A stretch of 51,436 bases of DNA from Syntrophaceae bacterium (GCA_013388645.1 JACAEV010000154.1:1-51436), one strand, 5' to 3'. Shown: positions 6,545-25,253, numbered from the stretch's first letter. The notes: generated by a model from the letters alone, not told the origin. Program-made: numbers and translations.

Positions 6545-6562
6545 TACCTATGTAGACAGGTA
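6545..6562 (-). promoter_or_regulatory. operator A (GntR/HutC-type palindrome) before DUF47
   Basis: The plus strand reads TACCTATGTAGACAGGTA, with outer arms TACCT/AGGTA. Read toward DUF47 it overlaps the -10 element. It is one of four near-identical sites in the window (with 16398, 17747 and 21566) matching CCTRTNTASAYAGG. It fits the known HutC-subfamily shape GT-N-TA-N-AC, so the GntR protein at 20774 is the probable binder. Confidence 0.75.
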
Positions 6563-6587
6563 TAAAAGAAAATAATCATTTTGTCAA
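6559..6587 (-). promoter_or_regulatory. sigma70-type promoter for DUF47 gene
   Basis: The -35 is TTGACA (6587-6582), the spacer is 17 bases and the -10 is TATACC (6564-6559). The -35 hexamer contains the TGA stop codon of the preceding HAD gene. The -10 runs into operator A, so a bound repressor would block transcription. Confidence 0.7.
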
Positions 6588-7627: not shown

Positions 7628-7730
7628 AATGATAAAGCTCCGATGGCCAACTTCCAATAACCAAACAACAGAAATTTCGGAAATTGATTATGGTCTGGTG
7701 TTTTGAATTTGGTGTTTGGTGATTTCCGCC

Positions 7731-9668
7731 TCATTTCCTTGCGATCTCATCGAGTACCACCTGGATGAGGCTTTCGGCATCTAATCCCTGCATCTTGTAA
7801 AGATCATCCGGTTTCCCAGAACTTCCGTATTGTGTGATCCCTAACTTCCGAAAACGAATGGACAACCGATGTTCTGCGATCACATTGGCAATACGGCTTC
7901 CGAGACCCGTATGAATCTGGTGATCCTCATAGGTGATGACCGTTCCCGTGTGGGCAGCCTTGAGGATGGCTTCAACATCTAAATCGCTCAGGCAAGAAAT
8001 GTTCAGGACCTGAACTTCGATTCCCTTTTCCTTCAATTTCTCCCAAGCTTGGACTGCCCGATAGACCATACCTCCTGTTGTGATGATGGCCGCATCTTTC
8101 CCCTTTCGAACCAGATCAGCATCGCCGTACCGAAACTCATAGGCATGGCCAAACATAGGGATTCCTTCTTCAGTGAGAAGAATGGGGATGGGAGAGCGAC
8201 CCATGGCGACTAAAAAATTCCCATGGGTTTTGGCAACATATCGAATGACCCGATCGGTCTGGTTGGGGTCTGCTGGAATGATGATTTTGTACCCAAAGAG
8301 GTTTCGCATTACCCCAACATAGTCGATACATTGATGCGTATTGCCATCTTCACCGACATCGAGGCCGTTATGCGTGCAGATCAATTTGAGGTTTGTTTCA
8401 TTGATATCGTTGAGGCGGTGTTGATTGTAGGTTTCATCAATCCCGAAGACGCCGAAATCGGCAAAGAGGGAGAGAAGACCGAGGGTGGAGATCGAACCCG
8501 CGATGGTGGCAGTATTATGCTCCTGAATTCCTCCTTGAAAGAAATGGTCTGGAAATTGTTTGGCGAAAGCGGTCGTCTTTGTTGAAGGGGCTAAGTCACA
8601 ATCGAAAACGGTCATAGGAAGAGAACCATCCTTTTTTAGGTTTACCTTGGCGAGATCCAGAAGAGCATTTCCAAAGGCTGAACGGTTATCCAGCTTCTGA
8701 TCTTTTTCATAATTTCTTGGATTTCCTATTTGGATGGAAGGGATTTCGATCGGATATTTTCTCCCGGAAAAGGGAAGGTTTTCTTTCTCCCGAATTTGGC
8801 GGTAGCGATCTAAATCGTCCTCCACTCCCAGCTCCTGGATGGCCTTTTTGTACTCCTCCAGATTTAAGGCCCTTCCATGAAATTCTTCTTTTCCCTCCAT
8901 GAAAGAGACGCCCTTTCCCATGGTGGTGTGGGCGAGGATCATCGTGGGGTGGTGGTTGATGCTCGCCTTTCGAAATGCAGAATAGATCTCCTGGAATTGA
9001 TGGCCATCGACTTCAATGACCTTCCATCCATCTGATTCATAATTTTTTGAAATATTCTGGGGCATGATTTCTGGCGTGACTCCGCTGATCTGTCTTAAGT
9101 TGTAGTCGATGATGACGGTAAGGTTATCCAGGCCATATTTGATCGCAAAGCGGCGGGCCTCAGAGATCTGGCCTTTCTGCTGTTCTCCACAACCCATGGT
9201 GACAAAAACATGGAATCCTCTTTTTAATATTCTTGATCCCAATGCGAATCCACAGCCTGCGGATAATCCTTGGCCCAGGTTGCCGGTATTCCATTCCACA
9301 CCCGGAATTCCTTTTTCCACATGTCCTTCGAAAGGACTTCCTGCTTTCCGAAAGGTTGCAATCGCAGCCTCAATAGGATAGAAGCCGATACGGCCAAGGG
9401 CCGAATATACGCCAGGAGAGGTATGCCCATGACTGATGACGATTCGATCTCTGTTGGGATCCGAAGCATACTGGGGATGAACATTGGCATAGGAATAAAG
9501 GACCAAATAAAAATCAATGGACGACATCGATCCCCCTGGATGTCCTGATCCAGCCAGGGTTGTCATCTTCAGGATATCGCCACGTGCCAACCTGGCCAAT
9601 TCGGCTAACTTTTTAATCGATTCTTCATCCAGTGTTTCAGCATCAAATCTTTTTTGGTTCATTGACAC
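7731..9668 (-). CDS. transketolase, divergent
   Basis: This 645-residue full-length thiamine-diphosphate transketolase would transfer two-carbon ketol units between sugar phosphates. Order: ThDP/pyrophosphate domain 1-290, pyrimidine domain about 320-500, C-terminal domain 510-645. Family signatures are GHPGGSMS, ISHGHTSPG, TGNLGQGLS, EFHG (His264), the catalytic Glu in GIQEHN and GEDGNTHQ. The metal-binding motif is abnormal: residues 159-161 read GCG where the family has GDG, although Asn190 in IIDYN is kept and the Gly after it is Leu. It is not adjacent to other pentose-phosphate genes but sits in the HAD/DUF47 series and near a transaldolase-like gene, so it may serve the local catabolic locus. 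ThDP binding with Cys160 is an open question. Confidence 0.88.
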   Translation of the reverse strand: MSMNQKRFDAETLDEESIKKLAELARLARGDILKMTTLAGSGHPGGSMSSIDFYLVLYSYANVHPQYASDPNRDRIVISHGHTSPGVYSALGRIGFYPIEAAIATFRKAGSPFEGHVEKGIPGVEWNTGNLGQGLSAGCGFALGSRILKRGFHVFVTMGCGEQQKGQISEARRFAIKYGLDNLTVIIDYNLRQISGVTPEIMPQNISKNYESDGWKVIEVDGHQFQEIYSAFRKASINHHPTMILAHTTMGKGVSFMEGKEEFHGRALNLEEYKKAIQELGVEDDLDRYRQIREKENLPFSGRKYPIEIPSIQIGNPRNYEKDQKLDNRSAFGNALLDLAKVNLKKDGSLPMTVFDCDLAPSTKTTAFAKQFPDHFFQGGIQEHNTATIAGSISTLGLLSLFADFGVFGIDETYNQHRLNDINETNLKLICTHNGLDVGEDGNTHQCIDYVGVMRNLFGYKIIIPADPNQTDRVIRYVAKTHGNFLVAMGRSPIPILLTEEGIPMFGHAYEFRYGDADLVRKGKDAAIITTGGMVYRAVQAWEKLKEKGIEVQVLNISCLSDLDVEAILKAAHTGTVITYEDHQIHTGLGSRIANVIAEHRLSIRFRKLGITQYGSSGKPDDLYKMQGLDAESLIQVVLDEIARK

Positions 9669-10036: not shown

Positions 10037-10192
10037 ACATTTTCGGGAATATGCATTTCTCTTGAGAAATTCCTCCCAACCTTCCTTTGCCTGTCTTTGA
10101 CAGGAAAAAGATTACCAAAGGGAGGGGAAATATTTCACCGTTTGCCAAAGGGGGATGAAAAACTCATAAATGGATGGGGCTATGATAGGACC

Positions 10193-10972
10193 ATGGGGGA
10201 ATATCGGAAGATAGCAGGCATTGAACATGAAGGGAAGCACATTCCCTGCCGCCTTATCATTTTTGATAAGGATGGAACGCTGATCGATTTTGCAGCCACT
10301 TGGGTTCCTCTGATTCGAAAAAGGGTTGCTTTTTTATTAAAGCAGTTAGGAAGAAATGGAGGATTAGAAGCCTTTTTATTGAAATCTTGGGGGATAGATC
10401 CAATGACTGGAAAAGTTGACCCAAGAGGACCTTGCCCGGTATCGCCGAGATCGGACGAAATTATTATTGGGACGATGGCTCTTTATCAGCATGGGTTTCC
10501 ATGGGATGAATCGAAGAGTCTCGTAGCGCAAGCATTTGACCTTGCCGATGCAGATGGAGATTGGCGAGAGAAGGTGGTTCCCATTAAAGACATCCAAACT
10601 TTTCTTTCCCGATTGAAATGCGATGGCGTCTATACTGCCCTTGCAACCAACGACGAGCGAAAGGATACGGAGGCTATTCTCTCTCATCTTGAAATGGAGG
10701 GGTTGTTTGATATCATCCTCTGCGCAGGAGAGGTGGAACCACCCAAACCTCATCCTGAGACCATCTTAACCATTTGCCGGAAGCTCTCCATTCCTCCTGA
10801 AGAGACAGTCATGGTGGGGGATTCGGTCACAGACATGATGATGGGGAAAAGGGCCGGTGTGGCGTTGACCATTGGAATTCTTGAAGGAGGGGTGACTCCA
10901 AAAGAAGAATTGGAGAAGGTGGCTGACTTCGTGGTCAACTCGATCCGCGATTTAAAATTTTGCGATTTTTAA
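10193..10972 (+). CDS. HAD-superfamily phosphatase, phosphoglycolate-phosphatase-like
   Basis: This is a 259-residue HAD hydrolase. Motif I is FDKDGTLIDF, motif II the Thr in ATND, motif III the Lys in KPHP and motif IV GDSVTDMMMG. The cap is the small helical type of subclass IA. It is unrelated in detail to the first HAD gene at 6584. The substrate is not evident; phosphoglycolate phosphatase is the nearest general description. I placed the start at ATG 10193 because upstream codons lie in a repeat and are not family-like. The ribosome site is weak (TAGGA only 2 bases away). It stands alone on the plus strand between transketolase (divergent) and the acylase gene 200 bases on. Confidence 0.8.
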   Translation: MGEYRKIAGIEHEGKHIPCRLIIFDKDGTLIDFAATWVPLIRKRVAFLLKQLGRNGGLEAFLLKSWGIDPMTGKVDPRGPCPVSPRSDEIIIGTMALYQHGFPWDESKSLVAQAFDLADADGDWREKVVPIKDIQTFLSRLKCDGVYTALATNDERKDTEAILSHLEMEGLFDIILCAGEVEPPKPHPETILTICRKLSIPPEETVMVGDSVTDMMMGKRAGVALTIGILEGGVTPKEELEKVADFVVNSIRDLKFCDF

Positions 10973-11173: not shown

Positions 11174-13621
11174 ATGAAAAAGTTCGCACTGAGTATCTTC
11201 TGTTTGATTTGCATTTACTGTTTTTCATCAACGGATTCACTTTCAAAAACCTCTTTAGTGACGGTTTATCGGGATGACTACGGAGTCCCCCATATTTTTT
11301 CTCAGGACATCGAAGGGCTCTTTTACGGTTTTGGCTATGCCACGGCCCAGGACAGGCTTTTTCAGATAGATATGCTTCGAAGAACTTATTGGGGAAGGGT
11401 CGCGGAAGTTCATGGAGCCAAATTTCTTGAATTTGATAAATCCATGCGTCGGGACAATCTGACACGGGCTCAAGTGAAGGACCAGATTGGGGCCCTGGAT
11501 AAGGAATATCAAAGCGTCTTGCGTTCCTTTGCTGATGGTATCAATGCTTATGTTCGTGAGATTCAGAGCGACCCCTCGCAGAAAGCCCCTGCCGAATTCG
11601 GCAAATTTGGAGTTGACCCCGAAAAGTGGGAAGCAGAAGATGTCGCAGCCGTTTTTAATTCTGTCATGGGTGTCTTTATGGATTTCTCAAGGGAATTGGA
11701 AAACCGGGCACTTCTCGATTTCCTCATCAAAAAACACGGGCAAAAGAAAGGACAAGCGATCTTTAAAGATTGTGTCTGGGGAAATGATCCCAGTGGTTTT
11801 ACGACGATCCCATCCATTGCCAAAGCAACGCCGGTTACCAAGAGAAAGGCTGAACATGTTAAGCCCAACTCTGTTGCCATGGGGCTGATGAAGGAGTCAG
11901 AGACGCTTCGCCAGGCTTACCTCCAATTGGGCATCCTTCCTCCAGGTGACATCCTTGCATCCAGTTACGCTTTTGTGGTTTCAGGAAAACGCTCGGCAAC
12001 AGGAAATGCCCTTTTAATGGGTGGACCTCAATTTGGTTTCCACCTTCCATCCGACCTCTATGAAGCAGGACTTCATGGGCCAGGGATGAATGTGATCGGA
12101 TCGACCTTAGTCGGGTATCCCTGTCTGATGTTCGGCCATAATGAAAAGAGTGCCTTTTCATCGACCGCTGGAGTGGATAATATTACAGATATCTTTGAAG
12201 AGAAGCTAAATCCCAAAAATCCTCGTCAATATTGGTTTTTGGGAAAGTGGCGTGCCATGGATGCGCGAAAAGAGGTCTTCAAGGTGAAGAATGAGGAGCC
12301 TAAGGAGTTTACTTTTTATTATACGGTTCATGGGCCCATCATTCGAATGGATGAAGGGAAGGGAATTGCCTATTCTAAGCAACTTGCCTGCAAAGAAGAC
12401 TACCTTTCTGGATTCGTATCCTTCTATGAACTGATGAAGGCTCAGACGCCTGAAGATTTTAAGAAGGCCGCTTCCCTCAGTTCCCTTTCGGTCAATGTCT
12501 ACTATGCAGATACATCAGGCCACATAGGATATTTTCATCAGGGGAGATATCCAAAACGAAATGGAAAGGTAAATCTCCTTTTTCCAACACCAGGGACGGG
12601 AGAATTCGAATGGGAGGGATTCATGCCGACTGATAAAAACCCTCATGTGATGAATCCAACAACAGGAATTATTGCCAACTGGAATAACAAACCTGCAAGA
12701 GATTGGTGGAATGGAGATCTTGGTGGAATATTAGGGGGTGTAGGAGGATGGGGTATTGATCACCGTGCCTCCCTTCTGATGGAGATCGTAAAGGGGAAAG
12801 ATAAGATTTCGATCGATGATCTAAAGAAGATGATTCAGGATATTACTTTTTCTCACCTTGGAGCTCAGAGGTTCAAACCTTTCCTTATGGAGGCGGGGAA
12901 GAGATACAAGAGTTCTGATTCAAGGATTGAGAAGGCTCTTGAAATTCTGAAGGCATGGGATGATCGATGGTCCGATCAAAATAATGATGGATTTTATGAT
13001 CATCCTGGTCTCACGATCTTCAATGCCTGGTGGGATATCGTGCTTAAGAACACTTTTGAAGATGAATTGGGAGACTATTGGGTATCTCTTGAGACAAGCT
13101 ATGGTGGCCCTTATGCCTGGGAAAGAAGAAAAAGATATCCTGGGAATTCTCTTTTTCTGCGGGCACTCCTTGGGAAGAAGGCACCCAATCCCACTGGACT
13201 TGATTACTTCAATGGAAAAAGAGATGAAATTCTTGTGAAGAGCCTAAGCGAAGCTCTCGACAGGGTGGAGAAAAAATTTGGAACATCCGAAATGAACACG
13301 TGGAAGACACCGGTTACTCCGATGGGTTATGTTCCAACAACCATTCACGGAGTCACTTCCACAGGAGAGAAGGTCAAGGGGACTTTCTTCATGGAGCGAG
13401 GGACGGAGAATCATATTGTCGAATTAAAAAAGGAGGGGGCAGAAGGAATGATGGTCGTTCCCCCTGGTACAAGCGGTTTGGTCAAACCTGATGGGACAAA
13501 GAGTGCCCACTATGAGGACCAGCTCGAACTGTTTAACCGGTTCCAATATAAACCGATGTTGTTGAAAGAGGAGGCGATTAAAGCCAAACCCAAACAGGAA
13601 CTGACCTATACTTATGAATAA
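11174..13621 (+). CDS. penicillin acylase family amidohydrolase (Ntn hydrolase), secreted
   Basis: This 815-residue precursor has a signal peptide (about 1-25), an alpha-chain region, a spacer and a beta chain. Family marks are VYRDDYGVPHIF, FGYATAQDRLFQIDMLRR, GPQFGFHLPSDLYEAGLHGPG, the FGHNEKSAFSSTAG stretch and the oxyanion-site segment NWNNKPARDWW. The expected self-cleavage nucleophile is Ser264 in LASSYAFVVSGK; the residue after it is Tyr, where classical members have Asn. Enzymes of this family hydrolyse amides such as penicillin G, acyl-homoserine lactones or other N-acyl compounds in the periplasm, and the substrate cannot be told here. The ribosome site is GGAGG 9 bases before the ATG. 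No partner genes are in tight linkage, though it lies inside the larger catabolic locus. Confidence 0.88.
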   Translation: MKKFALSIFCLICIYCFSSTDSLSKTSLVTVYRDDYGVPHIFSQDIEGLFYGFGYATAQDRLFQIDMLRRTYWGRVAEVHGAKFLEFDKSMRRDNLTRAQVKDQIGALDKEYQSVLRSFADGINAYVREIQSDPSQKAPAEFGKFGVDPEKWEAEDVAAVFNSVMGVFMDFSRELENRALLDFLIKKHGQKKGQAIFKDCVWGNDPSGFTTIPSIAKATPVTKRKAEHVKPNSVAMGLMKESETLRQAYLQLGILPPGDILASSYAFVVSGKRSATGNALLMGGPQFGFHLPSDLYEAGLHGPGMNVIGSTLVGYPCLMFGHNEKSAFSSTAGVDNITDIFEEKLNPKNPRQYWFLGKWRAMDARKEVFKVKNEEPKEFTFYYTVHGPIIRMDEGKGIAYSKQLACKEDYLSGFVSFYELMKAQTPEDFKKAASLSSLSVNVYYADTSGHIGYFHQGRYPKRNGKVNLLFPTPGTGEFEWEGFMPTDKNPHVMNPTTGIIANWNNKPARDWWNGDLGGILGGVGGWGIDHRASLLMEIVKGKDKISIDDLKKMIQDITFSHLGAQRFKPFLMEAGKRYKSSDSRIEKALEILKAWDDRWSDQNNDGFYDHPGLTIFNAWWDIVLKNTFEDELGDYWVSLETSYGGPYAWERRKRYPGNSLFLRALLGKKAPNPTGLDYFNGKRDEILVKSLSEALDRVEKKFGTSEMNTWKTPVTPMGYVPTTIHGVTSTGEKVKGTFFMERGTENHIVELKKEGAEGMMVVPPGTSGLVKPDGTKSAHYEDQLELFNRFQYKPMLLKEEAIKAKPKQELTYTYE

Positions 13622-13724: not shown

Positions 13725-16142
13725 CTAACTTTTTACTTTCAGGTTTTCGGGGTCATAAAGCGGTTCTCTTTCAACGGTGGCTTCATACCTCTTGGCAGCG
13801 ACTTCGATTTGTAGTCGGGTCCCGGGTTCCGTATAATGGATGGGGAGATATCCATAGGCAATGGGCTTTTTGATTGTGTGCCCAAAGCCTCCACTGGTGA
13901 CCAAACCGATCACCTTGTCTCCATCAAGAATGGCTTCTTTTCCAATGGGCATCAGAGGCCCGGAATGGATGGTCAGGCAAGAGAGGCGACGGGTGATCCC
14001 TTTTTCTTTCTGAATCAGTAAAGCGTTTCGGCCAATGAAATCTCCTTTATCCAGCTTGACACAGAAATCAAGACCCGCTTCAAAAGGAGTGTATTCAGGT
14101 GAAATATCTCCACTCCAATATCGGTATCCTTTTTCCAGGCGTAAAGATTCAATACAGCGATATCCCGCGTTGATCAGCCCAAAGGGTTTCCCTACTTCCC
14201 AGATGGCATCGTAGACATGCAAGGCATATTCCACTGGTACATGCAATTCCCATCCCAGTTCACCCACATAGGTGATTCGAAGGGCAAGGGCAGGGGCGTG
14301 ACCGATTGTGATTTGTTTACAGGTCATGTAGGGAAATCCCTCATTGGAAAGATCGTCTTTGGTCAATGGTTTAAGGATTTGCCGCGACAGAGGGCCACAA
14401 AGGGTGATACAGGCTTTACTGGATGTCACATCATTGACCGATATAAGAGAGTTTTTGGGGAGATGTCTCTGGATCCAGGATAAGTCATGTTTCACAAAGG
14501 CAGTTCCTGTGACAATATAAAAGTGTTCCTCCCCAAGGCGACTGATGGTGAGATCACACTCCACTCCTCCTTTTTCATTCAGCATCTGGGTATAGGTGAT
14601 CGACTCGATGGGTTTATCCATTTGGTTAGCTGTTATTTTCTGGAGAAATGGAAGCGACCCAGGACCTTTGATCTCGATTTTTCCGAACGAGGTTTGGTCG
14701 ATGACTCCTGCCTTGGTTCTAACCGCTTCGTGTTCCTTTCCAACATGTTCAAACCAATTTGGAAGTCTCCACCCTAATTTATCTTTTGGAGCTACCCCTT
14801 TGGGGGCAAACCAGTTCGGCCTCTCCCAACCCGATTTTTCTCCAAAAACCGCCCTCATCTTTTTTAAGCGTGGGTAAAGTGGGCTTGTCCGTAAGGGCCT
14901 TGCGGAAAGCATCTCTTCATAGGGCCTACTCATCGAATAGTGGTGGGCGTAGACTTCGATGGATCTTTCGAGGGCATATTTTTGACTTCCGTGGTGGGCT
15001 CCAAATCGCCGTATGTCCAAACGCCAAAGATCTAAGCTGGGCGCCCCTTCGATGATCCATTCGGCCATCATCTTTCCAACTCCTCCTCCGGCAGCAATCC
15101 CATGGGCGCAGAAACCTGCGGCGACGAAGAAATTCTTCACTTCTGCCGCTTCCCCCATCACAAAATCTCCGTCGGAGGTAAACGCCTCAGGCCCATTGAG
15201 CAATGTGATGATTTCAGCATCACCAATAGCCGGAACCCGCTTGATGGCCAGAAGGGAGAGAGGTTCGAAATGTTCGTAGTTAGATTTAAGTAATGTCTTG
15301 GTAAAATCTCTCGGAATCCCATCCAACGCCCATGGAATGGGATTGTGTTCATACCCTCCCATGATGAGGCCCCCCACTTCCTCACGGAAATATACAAGAA
15401 GATCGGGGTCTCGCATGGTGGGCATTCCCTTTCGGACTCCCTTGATCGGTTTGGTAATGATATATTGGTGCTCCATTGGAATAATGGGGATGGAAACACC
15501 CACCATCTTTCCAATCTCTGGTGCCCAGATCCCAGCAGCATTCACCACGATTTCTGTTTTGATGTTTCTTTTTTCCGTTAGAACCTGATCGACTGCCCCG
15601 TTCTTTAAAGTAATCCCTGTCACACGGGTCTCTGTATAAATCGTCGCCCCACGATCTTTGGCTCCTTTAGCCAGGGCATACGTCACTCCACTTGGATCAA
15701 TCTGACCATCTGTCGGAAGATTGGCCGCTCCAACGATCCCTTTCTTTTCCATCACGGGAAAAAGGTCACAAGCTTCTTTAGGACTGATCAATTCCATGGG
15801 CAATCCGAAGGTTTTGGCCATGGCGGCTGATCGGCGCAATTCTTCCATCCGGTCCTTTGATGAAGCGATCCGAAGACCGCCCACTTCGCTCCAACCGGTA
15901 TGTTGGCCTGTCTCTTCATCCAGCCGAGAGTAGAGTTCGATGCTGTATTTCAGCATCTTCGTAATGTTTACCGAGGAGCGTAATTGACCCACCAGACCGG
16001 CAGCATGAAAGGTGGCACCGCTGGTGAGTTCTCCCTTATCCAAAAGGATCACGTCGTTCCATCCCATTTTGGTCAGATGGTAAGCAATGCTGCAGCCTGT
16101 AATTCCGCCTCCGATGATCACCACCCTGGCTTGATCTTTCAT
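13725..16142 (-). CDS. FAD-dependent dehydrogenase with GcvT domain (dimethylglycine/sarcosine dehydrogenase type)
   Basis: This 805-residue two-part enzyme has an N-terminal DAO-type FAD domain with the Rossmann motif IIGGGITG (residues 9-16) and the sequence SGATFHAAGL. Its His46 corresponds to the residue that binds FAD covalently in dimethylglycine and sarcosine dehydrogenases. The C-terminal half (about 430-800) is an aminomethyltransferase (GcvT) folate-binding domain, with ECDLTISRLG, YRCIESLRLEKGYRYWSGDISP and GRNALL typical of it. The expected reaction is oxidative N-demethylation of an N-methyl amine with capture of formaldehyde by tetrahydrofolate; the actual substrate is unknown. 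The ribosome site is GGAGG 9 bases before the ATG. It is divergent from the ABC substrate-binding protein gene, and its promoter carries operator D, tying it to the GntR regulon. Confidence 0.87.
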   Translation of the reverse strand: MKDQARVVIIGGGITGCSIAYHLTKMGWNDVILLDKGELTSGATFHAAGLVGQLRSSVNITKMLKYSIELYSRLDEETGQHTGWSEVGGLRIASSKDRMEELRRSAAMAKTFGLPMELISPKEACDLFPVMEKKGIVGAANLPTDGQIDPSGVTYALAKGAKDRGATIYTETRVTGITLKNGAVDQVLTEKRNIKTEIVVNAAGIWAPEIGKMVGVSIPIIPMEHQYIITKPIKGVRKGMPTMRDPDLLVYFREEVGGLIMGGYEHNPIPWALDGIPRDFTKTLLKSNYEHFEPLSLLAIKRVPAIGDAEIITLLNGPEAFTSDGDFVMGEAAEVKNFFVAAGFCAHGIAAGGGVGKMMAEWIIEGAPSLDLWRLDIRRFGAHHGSQKYALERSIEVYAHHYSMSRPYEEMLSARPLRTSPLYPRLKKMRAVFGEKSGWERPNWFAPKGVAPKDKLGWRLPNWFEHVGKEHEAVRTKAGVIDQTSFGKIEIKGPGSLPFLQKITANQMDKPIESITYTQMLNEKGGVECDLTISRLGEEHFYIVTGTAFVKHDLSWIQRHLPKNSLISVNDVTSSKACITLCGPLSRQILKPLTKDDLSNEGFPYMTCKQITIGHAPALALRITYVGELGWELHVPVEYALHVYDAIWEVGKPFGLINAGYRCIESLRLEKGYRYWSGDISPEYTPFEAGLDFCVKLDKGDFIGRNALLIQKEKGITRRLSCLTIHSGPLMPIGKEAILDGDKVIGLVTSGGFGHTIKKPIAYGYLPIHYTEPGTRLQIEVAAKRYEATVEREPLYDPENLKVKS

Positions 16143-16397: not shown

Positions 16398-16415
16398 TTC
16401 CTGTTTACACAGGAC
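16398..16415 (-). promoter_or_regulatory. operator D (GntR/HutC-type palindrome) before FAD/GcvT dehydrogenase
   Basis: It contains TCCTGTTTACACAGGA (16399-16414), perfectly self-complementary apart from the centre. It aligns with operators A, B and C over CCTRTNTASAYAGG and lies at the -10 of the minus-strand promoter. Confidence 0.7.
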
Positions 16416-16599: not shown

Positions 16600-17610
16600 A
16601 TGAAGGGGAAATGGATGATGTTAATGATCAGCATTATGACGATGATGTTTGTGTTAGGAACTGCAGTCGCCCAAGAGAAGGTGACCGTCTATACATCTTT
16701 AGAAACGGATGAGACCGTTAAATACCTGGAGCTGGCCAGAAAGGAGCTCCCCGGACTCCAGATCGATATCATCCGACTTTCGACAGGGGAATTGGGAGCA
16801 AGGATGTTGGCAGAAAAAGACAATCCTCAGGCAGACTGCATTTGGGGATGGGCGGTGACCAACACCGAACAGTTTATTCCAATGGGAATGTTAGAGCCTT
16901 ATAAACCCAAAGGGGTGGAGAAGTTGGATCAGAGGTTTGTCCATCCGAAATATTTTTATGCTGGGATCGATATGTACATCGCTGCCTTCTGTGTGAATAC
17001 AAAAGTCCTGAAAGAGAAAAATCTTCCCATGCCAAAGGGATGGTACGATCTGCTCAATCCCAAATTTAAAGGTCTTCTGGCCATGCCCAATCCCGCAGCC
17101 TCAGGAACCGGATTTCTGCAGGTGGCAAGCCTCCTTCAAATGTATGGAGCCAAAGAGGGAAAGGAAGACGGTTGGGAGTTTTTAAAGAGTTTGGATAGAA
17201 ATATGGGCCAATATATTAAAAGTGGGTCGAGACCGGCCAAGATGACGGCACAAGGGGAATTTGCTGTGGGATGCTCCTTCGATTTCGTCGTGGGTGAGCT
17301 GAAAAAGCAAGGAGCTCCGGTCGAATTTGTTTTCCCTGTGGAAGGGGCAGGATATGAAGTGGAGGCGAATGCTCTCCTTAAAGGTGCCAAAAACCCAAAT
17401 GCGGCAAAGAAATTTTTGGATTGGGCTATCAGTCCGAGTGCCATGAAACTTTATTCGGAATTTAAATTAGGGGTCACCCTGCCTGGAATCCCCACCCGCA
17501 CGGATATGCCAAAATTGTCAGAGATCAAACTCTATCCAATGGACTTTGCCTGGCAGGCCAAGAATCGCGATGCGATTCTGAAGAAATGGGAAAGCCTTTT
17601 CTTGAAATAA
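16600..17610 (+). CDS. ABC transporter substrate-binding protein, iron(III)/2-aminoethylphosphonate type
   Basis: This 336-residue periplasmic binding protein has a signal peptide ending at AVA-Q (about residue 25), then KVTVYTSLETDE, the usual opening of the FbpA/PhnS-like family. Internal marks are DCIWGWAVTNTEQF, FCVNTKVLKEKNLPMPKGWYDLLNPKFKG and GCSFDFVVGELKKQG. Most close relatives by this pattern are annotated as putative 2-aminoethylphosphonate (PhnS2-type) or iron binders. The lack of a clear iron-tyrosine pair argues against iron. The ribosome site AGGAGG is excellent. The gene has its own strong promoter and a terminator right after it, so it is made apart from, and probably in excess of, the ATPase and permease. 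Confidence 0.87.
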   Translation: MKGKWMMLMISIMTMMFVLGTAVAQEKVTVYTSLETDETVKYLELARKELPGLQIDIIRLSTGELGARMLAEKDNPQADCIWGWAVTNTEQFIPMGMLEPYKPKGVEKLDQRFVHPKYFYAGIDMYIAAFCVNTKVLKEKNLPMPKGWYDLLNPKFKGLLAMPNPAASGTGFLQVASLLQMYGAKEGKEDGWEFLKSLDRNMGQYIKSGSRPAKMTAQGEFAVGCSFDFVVGELKKQGAPVEFVFPVEGAGYEVEANALLKGAKNPNAAKKFLDWAISPSAMKLYSEFKLGVTLPGIPTRTDMPKLSEIKLYPMDFAWQAKNRDAILKKWESLFLK

Positions 17611-17720: not shown

Positions 17721-17749
17721 TTGACATTATTTTTTAATTCCATTAAAAC
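17721..17749 (+). promoter_or_regulatory. promoter for ATPase-permease-GntR operon
   Basis: The -35 is TTGACA (17721-17726), the spacer 17 bases and the -10 TAAAAC (17744-17749), overlapped by operator B. About 180 bases of leader with a degenerate repeat follow before the ATPase start. Confidence 0.6.
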
Positions 17750-17764
17750 CTATTTAGACAGGTA
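17747..17764 (+). promoter_or_regulatory. operator B (GntR/HutC-type palindrome) before ABC ATPase operon
   Basis: It reads AACCTATTTAGACAGGTA and differs from operator A in two positions. It sits on the -10 of the operon that encodes the GntR protein itself, which implies autoregulation. Confidence 0.72.
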
Positions 17765-17926: not shown

Positions 17927-19018
17927 ATGGGAAGAAATCTCAGGTTGGAAAACCTTACTAAGAAATTTGGGACGCTCACCGCCGTGGATCATGTGGATCT
18001 CGAAATCGAGGAGGGGGAGTTCATCTGTTTTCTGGGTCCGAGCGGTTGCGGCAAGACCACGGTCCTCAGGATGATCACCGGGTTTGAGACGGTGACGGAG
18101 GGGAAGGTCATTTTTGATGGGAGGGTGATCAATAACCTTATTCCGCAAAAGAGGGAGTTTGGGATCGTCTTCCAGTCCTATGCTCTTTTTCCCAATATGA
18201 CGGTGGAAGAGAATATCGCCTTTGGCCTCAAAGTGAGGAAGATGCCTAAGAAGGAGGTCGCTGAGAGGGTCGATCAAATGCTTGACTTGATAGGGTTGCG
18301 CGACTGGAGAAAACTTTACCCGGCTCAACTCAGCGGAGGGCAACAACAGAGGGTAGCGCTGGTAAGGGCCCTTGCTCCCAACCCTCAAGTTCTCCTCTTG
18401 GATGAGCCCCTGAGTGCTTTGGATGCAAAAATTCGTGTTCGCCTCAGGGCAGAAGTCAAGCGACTTCAGCAGGAACTTAAGAAGACGATGATTTACGTCA
18501 CCCACGACCAAGAAGAGGCGCTCTCGATCGCAGACCGTGTGGTCGTCATGGAGGCTGGACAGTTTCGGCAGGTGGGAAAGCCCATTGAGATTTATCAATG
18601 TCCCAATTCCAGCTTTGTCGCAGATTTTGTTGGGACATCGAATTTTTTTAAAGGGAGTCGATACGAAGATCGGGTCAAAACCGGCAAGAGGGAATTTAAA
18701 ATCTCTCAATCAGGTCCGCCGACGGAGGGGGAGGTATTTTTAGCCATTCGACCAGAAAAAATAGAGGTGTTTAAAGAGGGAACGCTGCCCAGCGCCTTGG
18801 AACCTTCGAACGTGATTTCTGGTAAAATTGATGTCGTCACCTTTTTAGGGGCCGCGGTTCGTCTGACCATCAACATCGATGGAGAGGAGTTGATTTCCGA
18901 TATCATTGAGAAAGAGTTCGCGCAGCGACAGCTCAAACAAGGGGAAAAAGTCCTTCTTTATTTTCCTCCGGAAGCCTTTATTGTTTATCCCATGACTCAA
19001 AGAGAGGGGATCTCATGA
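17927..19018 (+). CDS. ABC transporter ATP-binding protein (PhnT2/PotA-like)
   Basis: This is a 363-residue importer ATPase. Walker A GPSGCGKTT is at 37-45, the Q-loop in VFQSYALFP at 81-89, the signature LSGGQQQR at 135-142, Walker B VLLLDEP at 155-161 and the switch His in YVTHDQEE. A TOBE domain follows from about 285 to the end. It belongs to the group serving iron, polyamine and putative 2-aminoethylphosphonate importers. Its stop overlaps the permease start by 4 bases (ATGA). The ribosome site is weak, with AAGGA about 13 bases upstream. It forms the first gene of the operator-B operon. Confidence 0.92.
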   Translation: MGRNLRLENLTKKFGTLTAVDHVDLEIEEGEFICFLGPSGCGKTTVLRMITGFETVTEGKVIFDGRVINNLIPQKREFGIVFQSYALFPNMTVEENIAFGLKVRKMPKKEVAERVDQMLDLIGLRDWRKLYPAQLSGGQQQRVALVRALAPNPQVLLLDEPLSALDAKIRVRLRAEVKRLQQELKKTMIYVTHDQEEALSIADRVVVMEAGQFRQVGKPIEIYQCPNSSFVADFVGTSNFFKGSRYEDRVKTGKREFKISQSGPPTEGEVFLAIRPEKIEVFKEGTLPSALEPSNVISGKIDVVTFLGAAVRLTINIDGEELISDIIEKEFAQRQLKQGEKVLLYFPPEAFIVYPMTQREGIS

Positions 19019-20763
19019 GTCGAACCGAAACGACGCAGGGTCTTACCATCTCAGCCCCCATCAGCAGTGACCGGTGGCTGACGGGAGTCACAATGGGATT
19101 TCTGTTGGCCGTCCTCATCTTTTTTATGCTCTACCCGGTTTACGACATTTGCAAACTGAGTTTCTTTCGTGGGGAAAAACTCACCCTTGAAAATTATATA
19201 TCCTATTTCACCAATCCAAGAATGTTTCGATCCTTGACCAATAGCCTGATCGTCTCTGGGGCGACCACAGTCATCACCACGATCCTCGCTTTCTTCTTCG
19301 CTTATGGATTGACCCGAACGACCATTCCGGGAAAGGGGATTTTCTATACCATTTCGACCCTCCCTCTGATCGCCCCTTCCATCATTCAAGGGTTGGCGTT
19401 AATTCTTTTATTCGGGAAGAATGGATTGTTCACCCGTTATTTGCTTCATACCGATTGGAACATCTATGGAGCAACAGGGATCATTGTCGCAGAATGCCTT
19501 TACTGTTTTCCCAATGCCCTCTTTATTCTGTACACCACCCTCTCTGCCGTGGATACGCGATTGGATGAAGCCGCGCAGAGCCTGGGAGCTTCTGCTCTGA
19601 AAACCTTTTATAAAGTCACCCTCCCTTCGGCCAAATATGGGATTGCGAGTGCCGCGGCCCTGGTGTTTAACTTGACGATTACCGATTTTGGTGTCCCTGT
19701 GGTGATCGGAGGAAACTATAATGTGTTGGCGACTGAAATTTATCAACAAGTCATTGGAATGCAGCGGTTCAACCTGGGAGCCACAATCAGCGTGATCCTG
19801 CTCATTCCTTCCGTCGCCGCTTTTCTTTTAAACTATTACCTCACCAAAAAAAGTTATGCCCTCATCAGCGGTCAGGCTCGTCCATTTCTCCAACCCTCTC
19901 GGCCCTTTAAAAAATGGGCCTTCACCATTTATTGCTGGATCCCTTGCACCTTTATCCTCATTGTGTTTGCAACGGTTTTCCTGGGTTCCTTTGTTAAGGT
20001 CTGGCCTTATGATTTTTCTCTCACCTTGAAACATTATAATTTCCCTTCGTTGGGGGGAGTGGCACCCTTATGGACCAAATTCTGGGCCTCTTTCCTGAAA
20101 GGAGAGTGGCAAGCCATCATCGCTTATAAGTATGCCCCCATCTGGAATAGTCTTTGGATCTCTATTTTTGTCGCCGTTGGAGGCGCATGCCTGACGCTCT
20201 TGGCCGGATACATTGTTGAAAAAAAGAAGCCCAAAGGGGAACAGGTTCTCTATACCTTGAGCGTGTTGCCAGCGGCCATCCCTGGGATCGTGATGGGTTT
20301 GGGGTATATCCTGGCTTTTAACAAACCTTACTTTTTTATATACGGGACGTTCTGGATCGTCATCATCAATATCATCATCTGCAATTTTACACTGGGTGTC
20401 CTTTCCAGTATTGCCAATCTGAAACAGATCGATAAGTCCATTGAGGAGGCAGCGGTCAGTCTGGGAGCTAACCCCATTACCACTTTTGCCCGTGTGGTCT
20501 TCCCGCTCACCAAAACCGCCTTTTTCTCCAACATGACTTTCTTCTTCATGCGGGCGATGACCACCATCAGTGCTGTGATCTTTCTTGTTTCAGCGAAAGT
20601 GAAGCTGGCAGCCATTGAGATCGTTTTCCTCGATATCGATGGCCGAACCGCCAGCGCTAATGCCATGTGTACTATTATCATTCTCATCGTGGTTGGAATG
20701 CTGGTCGCCATGCGGTTGATCACTGGCAGAACCGCGCTGAAAGGAATGAGTGCCACGACCTAA
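19015..20763 (+). CDS. two-domain ABC permease, putative 2-aminoethylphosphonate type
   Basis: This 582-residue inner-membrane protein contains two fused binding-protein-dependent permease domains. The first spans about 30-280 with its EAA loop at DEAAQSLGASALKTFYKVTLP. The second spans about 305-570 with EEAAVSLGANPITTFARVVFP. About twelve membrane segments are expected. One protein thus supplies both halves of the channel, as in FbpB and PhnU2-type permeases. It overlaps the ATPase gene by 4 bases and is followed 10 bases later by the GntR gene. The combination binding protein, ATPase, fused permease and GntR regulator is the usual make-up of the putative 2-aminoethylphosphonate importers, but no PhnW or PhnX enzyme is nearby. 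Confidence 0.9.
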   Translation: MSRTETTQGLTISAPISSDRWLTGVTMGFLLAVLIFFMLYPVYDICKLSFFRGEKLTLENYISYFTNPRMFRSLTNSLIVSGATTVITTILAFFFAYGLTRTTIPGKGIFYTISTLPLIAPSIIQGLALILLFGKNGLFTRYLLHTDWNIYGATGIIVAECLYCFPNALFILYTTLSAVDTRLDEAAQSLGASALKTFYKVTLPSAKYGIASAAALVFNLTITDFGVPVVIGGNYNVLATEIYQQVIGMQRFNLGATISVILLIPSVAAFLLNYYLTKKSYALISGQARPFLQPSRPFKKWAFTIYCWIPCTFILIVFATVFLGSFVKVWPYDFSLTLKHYNFPSLGGVAPLWTKFWASFLKGEWQAIIAYKYAPIWNSLWISIFVAVGGACLTLLAGYIVEKKKPKGEQVLYTLSVLPAAIPGIVMGLGYILAFNKPYFFIYGTFWIVIINIIICNFTLGVLSSIANLKQIDKSIEEAAVSLGANPITTFARVVFPLTKTAFFSNMTFFFMRAMTTISAVIFLVSAKVKLAAIEIVFLDIDGRTASANAMCTIIILIVVGMLVAMRLITGRTALKGMSATT

Positions 20764-20773
20764 GGGAGGACCT

Positions 20774-21535
20774 GTGCCTGAAGCGTTCCGTTTGGAAAAG
20801 GGCGTTCCCAAATATATTCAGATCAGCAACTGGCTGATCGAGATGATCCAGAAGGGAAGGTATGCGGTCAATGATAAGTTACCCTCTGAATCCAAGCTCT
20901 CCGAGCTTTTTCAGGTCAACCGCAACACGGTTCGACAGGCCATTTCAGATCTGGTCGCCAAGGGGTTGGTCCAGAAAAAAAATGGTGTCGGTTCTTTTGT
21001 GTTGAGCCAGGCGATCACTCCCGTCAAGTATACCCTCCAGCATATTTCAAGTTTTACGGATGATATGCTCCGGATGGGGATCGTCCCTCAGACCCGTCTG
21101 ATCCATAAGTCCATCATCGAAGCCCCTCCGGAGGTTGCAGAAAAACTGATGTTGGGGAAAGAGAAGAAGGTGATCCTGACCGAACGCCTTCGGCTGGGAA
21201 ACCGAATTCCATTAGTGATTGAACGGAGCTATCTCCCCTATCGAGAATACAAGGACATTTTAAAGATGCGCTTAACCGGGTCCCTTTACCATCTCCTGAC
21301 CAAAAAGTTCCACGTCATTCTCCATCGTTCCATTCAAACCTTTCGGGCCGTGACTCTTTCCGGAAAGGATGCCAAATTATTGGGTCTCCCTCCGCGGTCC
21401 TCCGGAATTTTTTTAGAGAGCATCATCTACGATTCGAAAAACATCCCTGTGGAGGTGCTTCATGCTTTCCACCGGGGGGACAAATACATTTTTGAAGTGG
21501 AGTCGGGGAGATATCGGTACAATGTGGAGGCTTAA
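20774..21535 (+). CDS. GntR-family (HutC/UTRA) transcriptional regulator
   Basis: This 253-residue regulator has an N-terminal winged helix with PKYIQISNWLIEMIQKGRY, LPSESKLSELFQVNRNTVRQAISDLVAKGLV, and a C-terminal UTRA effector-binding domain (about 95-245) carrying ILTERLRLGNRIPLVIERSYLP. HutC-subfamily proteins release DNA when a transported metabolite or its breakdown product binds. I chose the GTG at 20774 because GGGAGGA lies 4 bases upstream and it follows the permease stop. An in-frame ATG at 20750 lies within the permease gene and has no ribosome site. It is last in the operon under operator B, so it probably controls itself, and the four shared palindromes are its likely targets. 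Confidence 0.9.
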   Translation: MPEAFRLEKGVPKYIQISNWLIEMIQKGRYAVNDKLPSESKLSELFQVNRNTVRQAISDLVAKGLVQKKNGVGSFVLSQAITPVKYTLQHISSFTDDMLRMGIVPQTRLIHKSIIEAPPEVAEKLMLGKEKKVILTERLRLGNRIPLVIERSYLPYREYKDILKMRLTGSLYHLLTKKFHVILHRSIQTFRAVTLSGKDAKLLGLPPRSSGIFLESIIYDSKNIPVEVLHAFHRGDKYIFEVESGRYRYNVEA

Positions 21536-21542
21536 AAAAGAC

Positions 21543-21571
21543 TTGACAAAAATTTTTTTTCTTGTTACCTG
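21543..21571 (+). promoter_or_regulatory. promoter for aminotransferase-aldolase-Ald operon
   Basis: The -35 is TTGACA (21543-21548), followed by an A/T-rich spacer of 17. The -10 position is occupied by TACCTG, the beginning of operator C. The -10 match is weak; the placement rests on the same -35/operator spacing seen at the other three sites. Confidence 0.5.
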
Positions 21572-21583
21572 TATAGATAGGTA
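21566..21583 (+). promoter_or_regulatory. operator C (GntR/HutC-type palindrome) before aminotransferase operon
   Basis: It reads TACCTGTATAGATAGGTA. The outer arms TACCT/AGGTA are perfectly complementary and so is CTGTAT/ATAGATAG with one change. It follows the GntR stop codon by 30 bases. Confidence 0.75.
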
Positions 21584-21815: not shown

Positions 21816-22928
21816 ATGGCAGAACTGAAGCGTTTTTTGGTCCCGTGGTTTGATCAGATTAAACCTTATGATACCGATGATTTATTGATGGCTTGGTCCA
21901 GACCCGAGTTGAAAAGGATGATGGTGAACGAAAACCCCATCCCTCCTTCTGAGAAGGTGCTCCAAGCCGTTATCGAAGCAGCCAAACTGGGGAATCGATA
22001 CCCCGATAGTGGCCCACGGATTCGTGCTAAAATCGCAAAACGCTATGATCTGGGACCGGAGAATGTTTTTATCAGCCATGGTTCTTCGGAGATCATTGAT
22101 ATGATCATGCGGCTCTTTGTTTCGCCTGGCGATGAGGTTTTACTTCCCAATCCAACCTTTTCCCTCTATGGCATCCGGACCCGGGCGGTGGGAGGGCAGG
22201 TGGTGGCCGTGGACATGACCTCTGATCTCCAATACGATATTCCGGCCATGCTTCGTGCGGTGACCCCCCGGACCAAGGTCATTATCATTTGTACCCCGAA
22301 TAATCCGACTGGGGATTTCATCCCTGACGATGATCTCATGAAGATCGTCGAACTCGGCATTCCCACTCTGATCGATGAAGCTTATTTAGAATATCACCCC
22401 GAGCACGAATCTAAGGCTCCTCTGATTCGAAAATATAACCATCTGATCGTAGCCCATACGTTTTCGAAAGCCTATGGGATGGCAGGCATCCGATTTGGAT
22501 ATGCCCTGGCAGATGAGACATTGATCGGCTACTTTCGGAAGATCCAGATCCCGTGGAACACCAGTCTCCTCTCCATGGCGGCTGCTGAGGCAGCCCTTGA
22601 CGAGGAAGAGGAATTGAAACGGAAAGCGGCTTACAATAATGCGGGCGTGGATTATGTGTTTAAAGAGCTCTCGAAAATTCCAGGGGTTACCCCTTATTAC
22701 TCCCATGGAAACTATGTTCTCATCGACGCCACAGATACCGGGGCAACAGGGAAAGAGATTGTGGATTATGTTTTTGAGAATGCAGGGGTCATTCTCAAAC
22801 ATTTTGCTCCTCTTCGCGGCCGGAACGGGTTCTTCCGGATCAGCCTGGGCACCCACGAAGAAAACTCCATCTGTGTCCATGCCATTAAGAAGTTTTTGGA
22901 GAATAGAAAAAAGGAGAAGAGGACATGA
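21816..22928 (+). CDS. PLP aminotransferase, histidinol-phosphate aminotransferase-like
   Basis: This 370-residue fold-type I aminotransferase of the HisC/CobD branch has ISHGSSEIIDMIM for the cofactor phosphate, NNPTGD (Asn163 region), the Asp of TLIDEAYLEY, the Schiff-base Lys218 in HTFSKAYG, and FRISLGTHEEN near the end for substrate carboxylate or phosphate binding. No other histidine-biosynthesis gene is nearby, and the gene sits in a transporter regulon, so a catabolic transamination is more likely than histidinol-phosphate formation. Linkage to alanine dehydrogenase suggests pyruvate or alanine as the amino partner. The ribosome site GGGAGG is 5 bases upstream. It overlaps the next gene by 4 bases (ATGA). 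Confidence 0.85.
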   Translation: MAELKRFLVPWFDQIKPYDTDDLLMAWSRPELKRMMVNENPIPPSEKVLQAVIEAAKLGNRYPDSGPRIRAKIAKRYDLGPENVFISHGSSEIIDMIMRLFVSPGDEVLLPNPTFSLYGIRTRAVGGQVVAVDMTSDLQYDIPAMLRAVTPRTKVIIICTPNNPTGDFIPDDDLMKIVELGIPTLIDEAYLEYHPEHESKAPLIRKYNHLIVAHTFSKAYGMAGIRFGYALADETLIGYFRKIQIPWNTSLLSMAAAEAALDEEEELKRKAAYNNAGVDYVFKELSKIPGVTPYYSHGNYVLIDATDTGATGKEIVDYVFENAGVILKHFAPLRGRNGFFRISLGTHEENSICVHAIKKFLENRKKEKRT

Positions 22929-24118
22929 AAAAGAGTCCATTAGAACGGCTGATGGAGACCCACCCTGGATTGGAGATCTGGTGGGACTCCTCGCCTTTGA
23001 TTTATTCTTCTTGGGCGGAAGGGATGCTTAAAAAAAGTCCCTCCCACCGACTCGAAGAACTTCGGGAACAATTGAAAAGACTTTTTGATCCGGAGCATCC
23101 TGAAAGGACTCTCTTTCGGGGAGTCACGACCAATCCCCCCCTTTCCCTGGGAGTGATCAAAACACGTGAATCCCTGGTCACGGAAATGGTCGACCGTCTG
23201 ATCGAACAACATCCCTGTGTGGATAAAGAGACGCTCTTCTGGTTGACTTATAAAGAGATCGTTAAAAGAGGGGCCGAGATGTATTTAGAAGTCTTCAAGC
23301 AGTCCCAGTATCGATATGGATATCTCTCGGGTCAAGTGGATCCAAGGGTTTTGACGGACCGGGACAAAATGATTTCGCAGGCCTTGGAACTGTCTCGTCT
23401 CAGTCCCAATGTGATGATTAAAGTCCCAGGGTCCAAAGAAGGGTATGACGTCATCAAATTCCTGACCTCTAAAGGAATCTCCACCAACAATACGCTTACC
23501 TTTGTTCTTCCCCAATTGATGGCCTGTGCAAAAGCCGTTCAGGAAGGAGTGGAGATTGCCAAAAAGGATGGGGTGGATTTGACCCGGTGGAGGTCGGTCA
23601 TCACTCACATGACCGCTCGTTATGGAGATCTGGGAGGTCTTCGGAAGGAAGGACAATCTCAGGGCATCGAGCTTTCTGAAGCGGAAGTCCGTTGGGCGGA
23701 GTTGGCCATCTTCAAGAAGGCATATCGTCTTGTCAAAGAAAGAAACTATCCCAGTAAGATGCTGATCTGTTCGATGCGAATCAGCCCGGTGATGGATGGG
23801 AAGAGCCATTGTTGGCATTTGGAAAAGCTTGCCGGGGGAGATATTGTCTTCACTTGCCCTCCTTCTTTTATCGAAGGGACTTTTGAGTTTCTTGATGGGA
23901 CAGAATTTAGACCCCAGATTGAAGAGGAGGTTCCCCAAGCCGTATTGGATAAATTAATGAGAATTCCCTATTTTGAAAAGGCTTATGAGGAGGATGGAAT
24001 GAAACCAGAAGAATTCAACACCCATCCTGCTCTCGTGGCCACTGCTGTTGAATTTTCTATAGCGACAGAAGGAATGGTGGATTTTGTTGCAAAACGGCTT
24101 GCGACCAAGTGTGGCTAA
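22925..24118 (+). CDS. transaldolase-family protein, FSA-like catalytic change
   Basis: This 397-residue divergent class I aldolase has GVTTNPPL at 66-73 (TalB TTNPSL), a Schiff-base Lys166 in MIKVPGS, Asn188 and Thr190 in STNNTLTF (TalB NLTLLF), an Arg in the HMTARY segment (TalB Arg181) and an Arg in CSMRIS (TalB Arg228), so phosphate binding looks kept. The catalytic Glu of transaldolase (STEVDAR in TalB) is Gln138 here, SGQVDPR; fructose-6-phosphate aldolase also has Gln at that place. It is about 80 residues longer than TalB, mainly at the N-terminus and in the 205-245 region. It is translationally coupled to the aminotransferase and followed by alanine dehydrogenase. The substrate is unknown; aldol cleavage rather than transfer is inferred. 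Confidence 0.8.
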   Translation: MKKSPLERLMETHPGLEIWWDSSPLIYSSWAEGMLKKSPSHRLEELREQLKRLFDPEHPERTLFRGVTTNPPLSLGVIKTRESLVTEMVDRLIEQHPCVDKETLFWLTYKEIVKRGAEMYLEVFKQSQYRYGYLSGQVDPRVLTDRDKMISQALELSRLSPNVMIKVPGSKEGYDVIKFLTSKGISTNNTLTFVLPQLMACAKAVQEGVEIAKKDGVDLTRWRSVITHMTARYGDLGGLRKEGQSQGIELSEAEVRWAELAIFKKAYRLVKERNYPSKMLICSMRISPVMDGKSHCWHLEKLAGGDIVFTCPPSFIEGTFEFLDGTEFRPQIEEEVPQAVLDKLMRIPYFEKAYEEDGMKPEEFNTHPALVATAVEFSIATEGMVDFVAKRLATKCG

Positions 24119-24134: not shown

Positions 24135-25253
24135 ATGATCATTGGAGTTCCGAAAGAGATTAAGAATGGGGAAAGAAGGGTGGGCATGACCCCCCAGGGT
24201 GTTGATGCCTTGGTCTCTCATCACCATCGGGTGTTAGTTGAGAGAGGGGCGGGAGTGGGAGCCGGTTTCTCTGACCATGAATATGGGAAAGCAGGGGCAA
24301 TCCTCGTCGATAAATCAAAGGATATTTGGGGGGAGGCTGATTTGGTGGTGAAAGTGAAGGAGCCCTTAGAACCAGAATTCCCTCTGATGAAGTCCGGCCA
24401 AGTCCTCTTTACTTACCTCCATTTGGCTGCTGATCGGGAGCTCACTTTGAAATTGATGGAACGCCGCATCGTTGGGATTGGATACGAAACGGTGCAGGCC
24501 AAAGATGGGTCTCTTCCCCTCCTACGTCCAATGTCTGAGATTGCGGGGAGGGCCTCCGTCCTCGCCGGTGGAATGTGTTTGGAAGCAAGACACGGAGGGA
24601 GAGGGGTCCTTCTCTGCGGAGCCTCAGGCGTTCCTCCAGCAAAGGTGGTCATTCTTGGCGCTGGTGTGGTCGGAACGAATGCCTGTAAGGTCGCCCTGGG
24701 AATTGGCGCTCGCGTCAGCATTCTCGATATCCATCCGGAACGACTGAGTTATCTCCATGATATTACTCAGGGGCATATTGCTACCTTCATTTCAAATCGG
24801 ATGACGATTGGAGAAGAGATCGCTGGGGCTGATCTTGTAATTGGGGGGGTCCTCATCCCAGGCGCCCAAGCTCCTAAATTAGTGACTCGCCAGATGCTGA
24901 AGAAAATGAGGCCCGGATCTGCGATTGTGGACGTCTCCGTGGATCAAGGGGGATGTTTTGAAACGACAAAACCAACCACTCATGAGAACCCTACCTATAT
25001 GGAGGAGGGGATCGTCCATTATTGTGTGTCCAATATCCCTGGAGCCTTTCCCAGGACCTCTACGTTTGCCCTTACCAATGCGACCTTTCCTTACGTTCTT
25101 CAGATTTCAGACAAAGGTTACGAAAAGGCGTTGATAGAGAATGATGCATTAAGAAAAGGCCTTAATCTGATTGACGGGAAGATTGTCTGTCAAGCTGTCG
25201 CTGAAAGCTTTGGGTTGGGATTTATTGAGAATCCCTTTTCCCCCCTTCCTTGA
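24135..25253 (+). CDS. ald: alanine dehydrogenase
   Basis: This 372-residue NAD-dependent enzyme interconverts alanine and pyruvate plus ammonia. Conserved parts are GVPKEIKNGERRVGMTP (substrate Arg15), the Lys in VKVKEPL, the His in YLHLAAD, the Rossmann motif VILGAGVVGTNA and the catalytic Asp in VDVSVDQGGC. Length is normal. It is the third gene of the operator-C operon, 16 bases after the transaldolase-like gene. Its probable job there is to recycle the alanine made by the aminotransferase into pyruvate while releasing ammonia. The ribosome site is weak (GAGACG). Confidence 0.93.
   Translation: MIIGVPKEIKNGERRVGMTPQGVDALVSHHHRVLVERGAGVGAGFSDHEYGKAGAILVDKSKDIWGEADLVVKVKEPLEPEFPLMKSGQVLFTYLHLAADRELTLKLMERRIVGIGYETVQAKDGSLPLLRPMSEIAGRASVLAGGMCLEARHGGRGVLLCGASGVPPAKVVILGAGVVGTNACKVALGIGARVSILDIHPERLSYLHDITQGHIATFISNRMTIGEEIAGADLVIGGVLIPGAQAPKLVTRQMLKKMRPGSAIVDVSVDQGGCFETTKPTTHENPTYMEEGIVHYCVSNIPGAFPRTSTFALTNATFPYVLQISDKGYEKALIENDALRKGLNLIDGKIVCQAVAESFGLGFIENPFSPLP

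Follow-up and report, generated by a model that had tools for sequence, protein, structure and literature searches.

A predicted GntR regulon around a third active-site variant of the transaldolase/fructose-6-phosphate aldolase superfamily in a Syntrophaceae bacterium

What might a transaldolase-like enzyme do when glutamine occupies the place of its catalytic glutamate and its gene is joined to that of an aminotransferase? The question was raised by a gene at 22925-24118 (plus strand) of a 51,436-nucleotide stretch of DNA from a Syntrophaceae bacterium, the whole of which is called the window here. The open reading frame encodes a TAL-like protein of 397 residues from an ATG start, and the single Pfam family it matched was TAL_FSA (PF00923; E=2.2e-28, 99.9 bits against a cut-off of 27), a membership borne out by the Schiff-base Lys166, which was invariant in 22 sequences. 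In a curated profile search the protein stayed under every transaldolase and fructose-6-phosphate aldolase (FSA) cut-off, scoring 67.3 bits against 233.75 for the actinobacterial-type transaldolases (TIGR00876), and 44.9 bits against 245.95 for FSA (TIGR00875), the members of which have about 220 residues rather than 397. The closest solved structure was 3r5e, an actinobacterial-type transaldolase (E=9.6e-15 with the protein as query, 4e-34 with the family profile), and an AlphaFold model from a shallow four-sequence alignment had a pLDDT of 43 and a pTM of 0.29. The protein had been described as longer than both groups, which is true of TalB (317 residues) and FsaA (220), but actinobacterial-type transaldolases already reach 360-380.

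Its active site was mapped by an hhalign comparison of the family profile with E. coli TalB (98.3% probability, E=1.3e-14) and by a MAFFT alignment that included 20 ordinary Tal/TalC/FSA reference sequences, and the two agreed on the TAL-like/TalB pairs D21/D17, N70/N35, Q137/E96, K166/K132, N188/N154, T190/T156, T227/S176, M229/F178, R232/R181 and R285/R228. The initial annotation was borne out in its Schiff-base lysine, which is invariant in the relatives, in its phosphate-binding arginines (Arg232 and Arg285), and in its Gln at the TalB Glu96 position, except that this residue is number 137 and not 138 (S135-G136-Q137-V138-D139-P140-R141). With TalB and the TIGR00876 transaldolases the protein shares the fold family, the lysine, and the equivalents of Asp17, Asn35, Thr156, Arg181 and Arg228. 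It departs from them at three sites, with Gln137 for Glu96, Thr227 for Ser176 and Met229 for Phe178, and this set was invariant in 20 of 20 sequences of its own clade, QI, and in both sequences of clade QII, which are 27-28% identical to it. Glu was found at the E96 position in 19 of the 20 references, which had Phe (18) or Leu (one) at the 178 position; the sole exception was E. coli FsaA, with Gln, Ala and Tyr. Homologues with the standard Glu were absent among the 22 relatives, and the invariance of Gln137 down to 27% identity and across independent genomes means that it is neither a sequencing error nor chance.

The likeness to FSA ended with that residue. Gln137 is equivalent to FSA Gln59, but the catalytic Tyr131 of FSA corresponds to Met229, and its Ala129 to Thr227, in every relative, and the absence of Tyr131 led us to reject FSA membership. 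In a phylogeny with the Tal and FSA subfamilies, as the initial annotation had proposed, FsaA fell with TalC/MipB proteins and the TAL-like protein in the separate clade QI (support 100/100), to which QII is sister, while the deep branches were long and their order unsure. As judged from these alignments, Gln137-Thr227-Met229 (Q-T-M) is a third active-site type in the superfamily, that of neither TalB nor FSA. Nor did the Gln by itself bear out the view that cleavage is favoured over transfer: the published single change that converts TalB into an aldolase is F178Y (PMC3962226).

Part of the Q-T-M set had a precedent. Faecalicatena growing on sulfoquinovose makes two proteins that Borusak et al. 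regard as candidate transaldolases. One of them, their second (F2), has D23, Q111, K140, N162 and T201; they note the differences E61Q, S133T and W138R and suggest that it may resemble fructose-6-phosphate aldolase (PMC11659671). F2 (Faecalicatena sp. DSM22707, IMG 2956859251) has the D-K-Q triad and the Thr at the Ser176 site of the window protein, and its published positions, on which this comparison rests, match those of the QII member L077 (D24, Q112, K141, N163, T202) shifted by one residue, and also the spacing of the window protein from the Gln onwards. F2 belongs to a sulfosugar cluster beside a split transketolase, whereas the window protein is of the longer sister clade QI and has other partners. 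The Gln/Thr combination has, on these positions, been seen before, in a protein whose function, like that of the window protein, is a predicted one. Identity with the sulfofructose transaldolases (SftT/BmSF-TAL) was rejected: they belong to the same superfamily, and the sugar on which they act carries an anionic head group, but they retain Glu61 and Ser133 (PMC11659671), are of the short decameric type and have no aminotransferase partner.

Of the 23 genomes of the window's class, 20 had a QI gene, as did five more among 395 sampled in the phylum, with a homologue (49% identity) on Shinella plasmids; this sampling covered the phylum and plasmids of other phyla, and the genomes were mostly draft. 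A scan of genome contigs with the single protein recovered close relatives only, a family-profile scan of viral contigs found no relatives, and a literature search on 'transaldolase family protein' found nothing relevant. The TAL-like gene is an extra in the window's own genome, which also encodes three proteins with Glu, one a Tal-Pgi fusion and two of TalC type, and three of the four genomes from the same genus lack the gene. No PF00923 protein other than the QI homologue is present in G325 (96% complete) or G391 (100% complete). That the chemistry is not tied to amines is seen from the relatives at L044, L072, L073, L038 and in Shinella, which have no aminotransferase with them and are set among sugar, TRAP-transporter, transketolase or TPP-dehydrogenase genes. 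At L044:1082-12115, L073:1-10898 and L036:7123-10632, QI genes lie beside UPF0261 proteins, TRAP/ABC transporters, dehydrogenases and a psicose-epimerase-like protein in sugar-like clusters, and that of L044 additionally has corrinoid and methyltransferase proteins. On the Shinella plasmids (L078:10951-17037, L079) the homologue is flanked by genes for E1 and E2 of an acetoin/pyruvate-dehydrogenase-like complex and has gph and a triose-phosphate isomerase gene downstream of it, and on Clavibacter plasmid pCI3 (L080:9836-10960) a QII gene adjoins the inositol-type genes iolB and iolD, isomerases and a MocA-type oxidoreductase.

The genes around the TAL-like gene offered a second line of evidence, and are as follows.

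5893-6519, minus strand: DUF47/PhoU_div protein (PF01865), with a predicted operator 28 bp upstream and a PiT-DUF47 gene order in relatives
6584-7657, minus strand: HAD hydrolase, TIGR01548-like; a conserved neighbour and putative pathway member only
7731-9668, minus strand: transketolase (NF004556, 988 bits); likewise a conserved neighbour and putative pathway member only
10097-10972, plus strand: HAD phosphatase-like protein, with a homologue inside the operon in family f2
13725-16142, minus strand: dimethylglycine-dehydrogenase-like (DMGDH-like) FAD oxidase fused to a GcvT folate domain (PF01266, PF16350, PF01571, PF08669)
16600-17610, plus strand: periplasmic binding protein, PhnS2/AepX-like (TIGR03261, 333 bits, below the cut-off of 393; 4r72, E=1.1e-41)
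17927-19018, plus strand: ABC ATPase, PhnT2-like (TIGR03265, 441 bits, below the cut-off of 458)
19015-20763, plus strand: ABC permease, PhnU2-like (TIGR03262, 505 bits, below the cut-off of 593)
20750-21535, plus strand: GntR/UTRA regulator, PhnF/PhnR-like (PF00392, PF07702; PhnF 119 and PhnR 109 bits, both below cut-offs)
21816-22928, plus strand: HisC-type PLP aminotransferase (histidinol-phosphate aminotransferase profile TIGR01141, 285.7 bits, over the cut-off of 276.55; nearest PDB entries HisC)
22925-22928, plus strand: ATGA, the 4-nt overlap of aminotransferase stop and TAL start
22925-24118, plus strand: TAL/FSA-superfamily enzyme of clade QI (PF00923, alignments, tree)
24135-25253, plus strand: alanine dehydrogenase (Ald; TIGR00518, 489 bits, over cut-off)

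The coupling of the TAL-like gene to an aminotransferase, an unusual partner in the initial annotation, was substantiated by the ATGA overlap and by conservation of the partnership among relatives. Loci of the f1 family read, in order, DMGDH/GcvT (divergent, if there is one), binding protein, ATPase, permease, GntR, aminotransferase, TAL and alanine dehydrogenase, and the 4-nt overlap is kept in all f1 loci that hold both genes except L035, where a longer overlap comes from the start call of a simple ORF finder. Rearranged versions in families f2 and f3 and in the distant genomes G124 and G325 retain GntR, aminotransferase, TAL and, for the most part, Ald. Beyond the window's class, TAL and aminotransferase occur together in two genomes (five and three carriers among about 372; p about 4e-4), and aminotransferase and binding protein in three (p about 5e-7); both p values are rough and take no account of kinship. 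A sugar-phosphate outcome would fit the transketolase-like genes within the operons of G124 and G325 and the true transketolase that comes after TAL in L072. In G323 a gene for a class II ketose-bisphosphate aldolase, which runs off the contig, stands in the place of TAL, 12 bp after the aminotransferase; this replacement fits aldol chemistry in either direction, and the gene, as that genome's only PF01116 match, may be for a housekeeping enzyme. Elsewhere in the window's own genome, contig C1 (L145:3239-4396, minus strand) encodes a second HisC-type aminotransferase (55% identity) with no TAL or importer beside it, and at L143:1093-5005, in G044, importer genes stand with neither aminotransferase nor TAL and diverge from those for DUF47 and a phosphate permease. 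Between the HAD phosphatase-like and DMGDH-like genes, an 815-residue open reading frame (11174-13621) may be penicillin acylase-like, by eye.

That these genes might be switched together was suggested by an alignment of upstream regions, which revealed a strictly conserved stretch following a TTGACA box. Four copies of its 14-bp palindrome, CCTRTNTASAYAGG, and no more, are present in the genome of 3.95 Mb, and all of them are within the window, where 0.15 would be expected.

6547-6560, unstranded: predicted operator CCTATGTAGACAGG, before the DUF47 gene
16400-16413, unstranded: predicted operator CCTGTTTACACAGG, between the DMGDH-like and binding-protein genes, about 21 nt past a TTGACA reading towards DMGDH
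17749-17762, unstranded: predicted operator CCTATTTAGACAGG, before the ABC ATPase gene
21568-21581, unstranded: predicted operator CCTGTATAGATAGG, before aminotransferase-TAL-Ald, past a TTGACA

In eight relatives (G005, G008, G009, G010, G011, G012, G013 and G015) the operator is found again at the gene for a PiT phosphate permease, which in most cases DUF47 follows, and in a ninth (G001) it stands before DUF47 alone; the order in relatives is TKT-HAD-(PiT)-DUF47, and the window's DUF47 gene has no PiT gene directly alongside. The operator was absent from three same-genus genomes without the operon, and G006 has the operon with no exact match. Two other matches, at G009:C40 and G007:C96, have unrelated neighbours and were set aside as looking like background, since reversed control patterns give 0-2 matches per genome. 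The GntR protein would be the one to bind the four operators. Fold family, residue set, synteny and shared operators are all read directly from the DNA, and the sharing of the regulon with a phosphate transporter is an argument for phosphorus that arrives with the substrate and leaves as phosphate; export of Pi has been reported for an AepXVW bearer growing on aminoethylphosphonate (PMC8316502).

Which substrate this might be was approached through the importer and the companion enzymes. The PDB entries nearest to the binding protein are AfuA (hexose phosphates; 4r72) and P5PA (pyridoxal phosphate); its S-G-T phosphate-binding motif is invariant among the binding proteins and kept also in AEP-type loci, and the sugar-binding His205/Asp206 of AfuA are replaced. 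The AepXVW/PhnWX system (PMC8316502) has a related importer, a pyruvate aminotransferase and freed phosphate, and a binding-protein relative (about 41% identity) is present at a control locus whose PhnW and PhnX are genuine. The window differs from that system in having a HisC-type enzyme in place of PhnW and no PhnX, and in the added aldolase-type enzyme and alanine dehydrogenase. PhnX over cut-off was found in none of 16 regulon-type genomes, and classical PhnWX degradation was rejected for that reason; the aminoethylphosphonate control, G194, does have one. The DMGDH-like gene shares one of the operators, and the f2 operon contains an MtmB homologue without pyrrolysine (PF05369), full length with no in-frame stop at L040:7898-9385 (minus strand), L039:1497-2936 (minus) and L041:3789-5246 (plus), with Ile at the pyrrolysine position in L040 marking a non-pyrrolysine MtmB relative in a bacterial operon. 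Together, these two genes suggest N-methyl groups on the substrate, and AEP genes are known to have neighbours that encode FAD enzymes for N-methyl-AEP (PMC10590968). In one genome only, G019, a choline/ethanolamine-kinase homologue (3dxq, E=3.6e-44) directly follows TAL, and a betaine-type binding protein comes next. HisC-type enzymes act on an N-C-C-O-P unit, in which amine and phosphate are two carbons apart. Taken together, the phosphate-motif binding protein, the N-methyl clues, the G019 kinase and the HisC geometry make phosphoethanolamine, or a methylated form of it, the favoured candidate substrate, from which glycolaldehyde phosphate would arise; a literature search for a phosphoethanolamine transaminase route found nothing relevant.

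The TAL-like enzyme itself is best explained as a Lys166 Schiff-base aldolase or transaldolase, and we put at even odds a reading in which the GntR regulon would degrade an N-methylated amino-organophosphorus compound and the TAL-like enzyme would make or break a C-C bond of the phosphorylated carbonyl left by transamination. The AepXVW-like transporter would import an amine that carries phosphorus and probably can also carry N-methyl groups; the DMGDH/GcvT-like protein would N-demethylate it, passing the methyl to folate; and the HisC-type enzyme would transaminate it with pyruvate, which alanine dehydrogenase would regenerate. The TAL-like enzyme would then act on the C-C bond, with the phosphate of the carbonyl compound held by Arg232 and Arg285, and DUF47, with the PiT permease in relatives, would handle the surplus phosphate. 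In the favoured case, (N-methyl)phosphoethanolamine would yield glycolaldehyde phosphate, to which the TAL-like enzyme would add a dihydroxyacetone unit to give a pentulose 5-phosphate. Glycolaldehyde phosphate would imply the joining direction, by aldolase or transaldolase, and an amino-polyol phosphate would imply cleavage; substrate, direction, operator binding and all catalysis are what we infer from sequence.

The amino-polyol case, which we consider unlikely, would have the aminotransferase turn R-CHOH-CHOH-CH(NH2)-CH2-OP into a ketose phosphate that the TAL-like enzyme cleaves to two short carbonyls. The class II aldolase of G323, the sugar contexts of other clade members and the transketolase-like genes of G124 and G325 are all consistent with it, but the DMGDH-like gene of the regulon points to an N-methyl amine, N-methylated amino-polyol phosphates are not commonly known, and the usual TAL phosphate site does not suit a phosphate adjoining the ketone. 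Quite unlikely, in our view, is the initial proposal of an FSA-type aldolase that cleaves fructose 6-phosphate-like sugars into dihydroxyacetone and an aldehyde phosphate: the Gln59 equivalent and the role suggested for F2, which shares Gln and Thr (PMC11659671), speak for it, and the loss of Tyr131 and Ala129 in every member, the placement of FsaA with the TalC/MipB group and the low TIGR00875 score against it. That the enzyme is simply a pentose phosphate pathway transaldolase in which Gln is tolerated seems distinctly improbable; the QI homologue is indeed the sole PF00923 protein of G325 and G391, and transketolase genes are nearby in several genomes, but the window's genome already has its three Glu-bearing proteins, most of its same-genus relatives do without the gene, and the operon is a unit of transport and transamination. 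Very improbable is a TIM-barrel phosphonatase, of which we know no precedent in the superfamily, in which Lys166 would form a Schiff base with a phosphonate-bearing aldehyde (phosphonoacetaldehyde) after transamination of an (N-methyl) aminophosphonate and the C-P bond would break with a PhnX-like outcome, an idea in which, just as improbably, Gln137 and Met229 would stand in for the acid-base residues needed in aldol chemistry. The AepX-like importer, the phosphate genes and the absence of PhnX over cut-off from the 16 regulon-type genomes, in a search that among C-P-cleaving enzymes covered PhnX alone, would suit it, but not the sugar settings of TAL relatives or the aldol chemistry suggested by G323.

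The favoured reading, of an imported phosphorus-bearing amine whose carbonyl product is used by the TAL-like enzyme, has a relevance beyond this locus. The Q-T-M type sits in one of the best-studied aldolase superfamilies, in which single residues switch transfer to aldol chemistry, and what appears newly delineated is a predicted regulon around this third active-site variant of a known superfamily. Defined by its operators, the regulon, with its importer, demethylase, transaminase and phosphate genes, points to substrates worth testing, and the apparent shared switching of the enzyme with amine import, methyl and amino removal and phosphate genes suggests a degradation route that is not yet described. 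If the favoured reading is true, it would be an undescribed degradation of phospholipid head-group amines, or of related phosphonates, in little-known deltaproteobacterial lineages.
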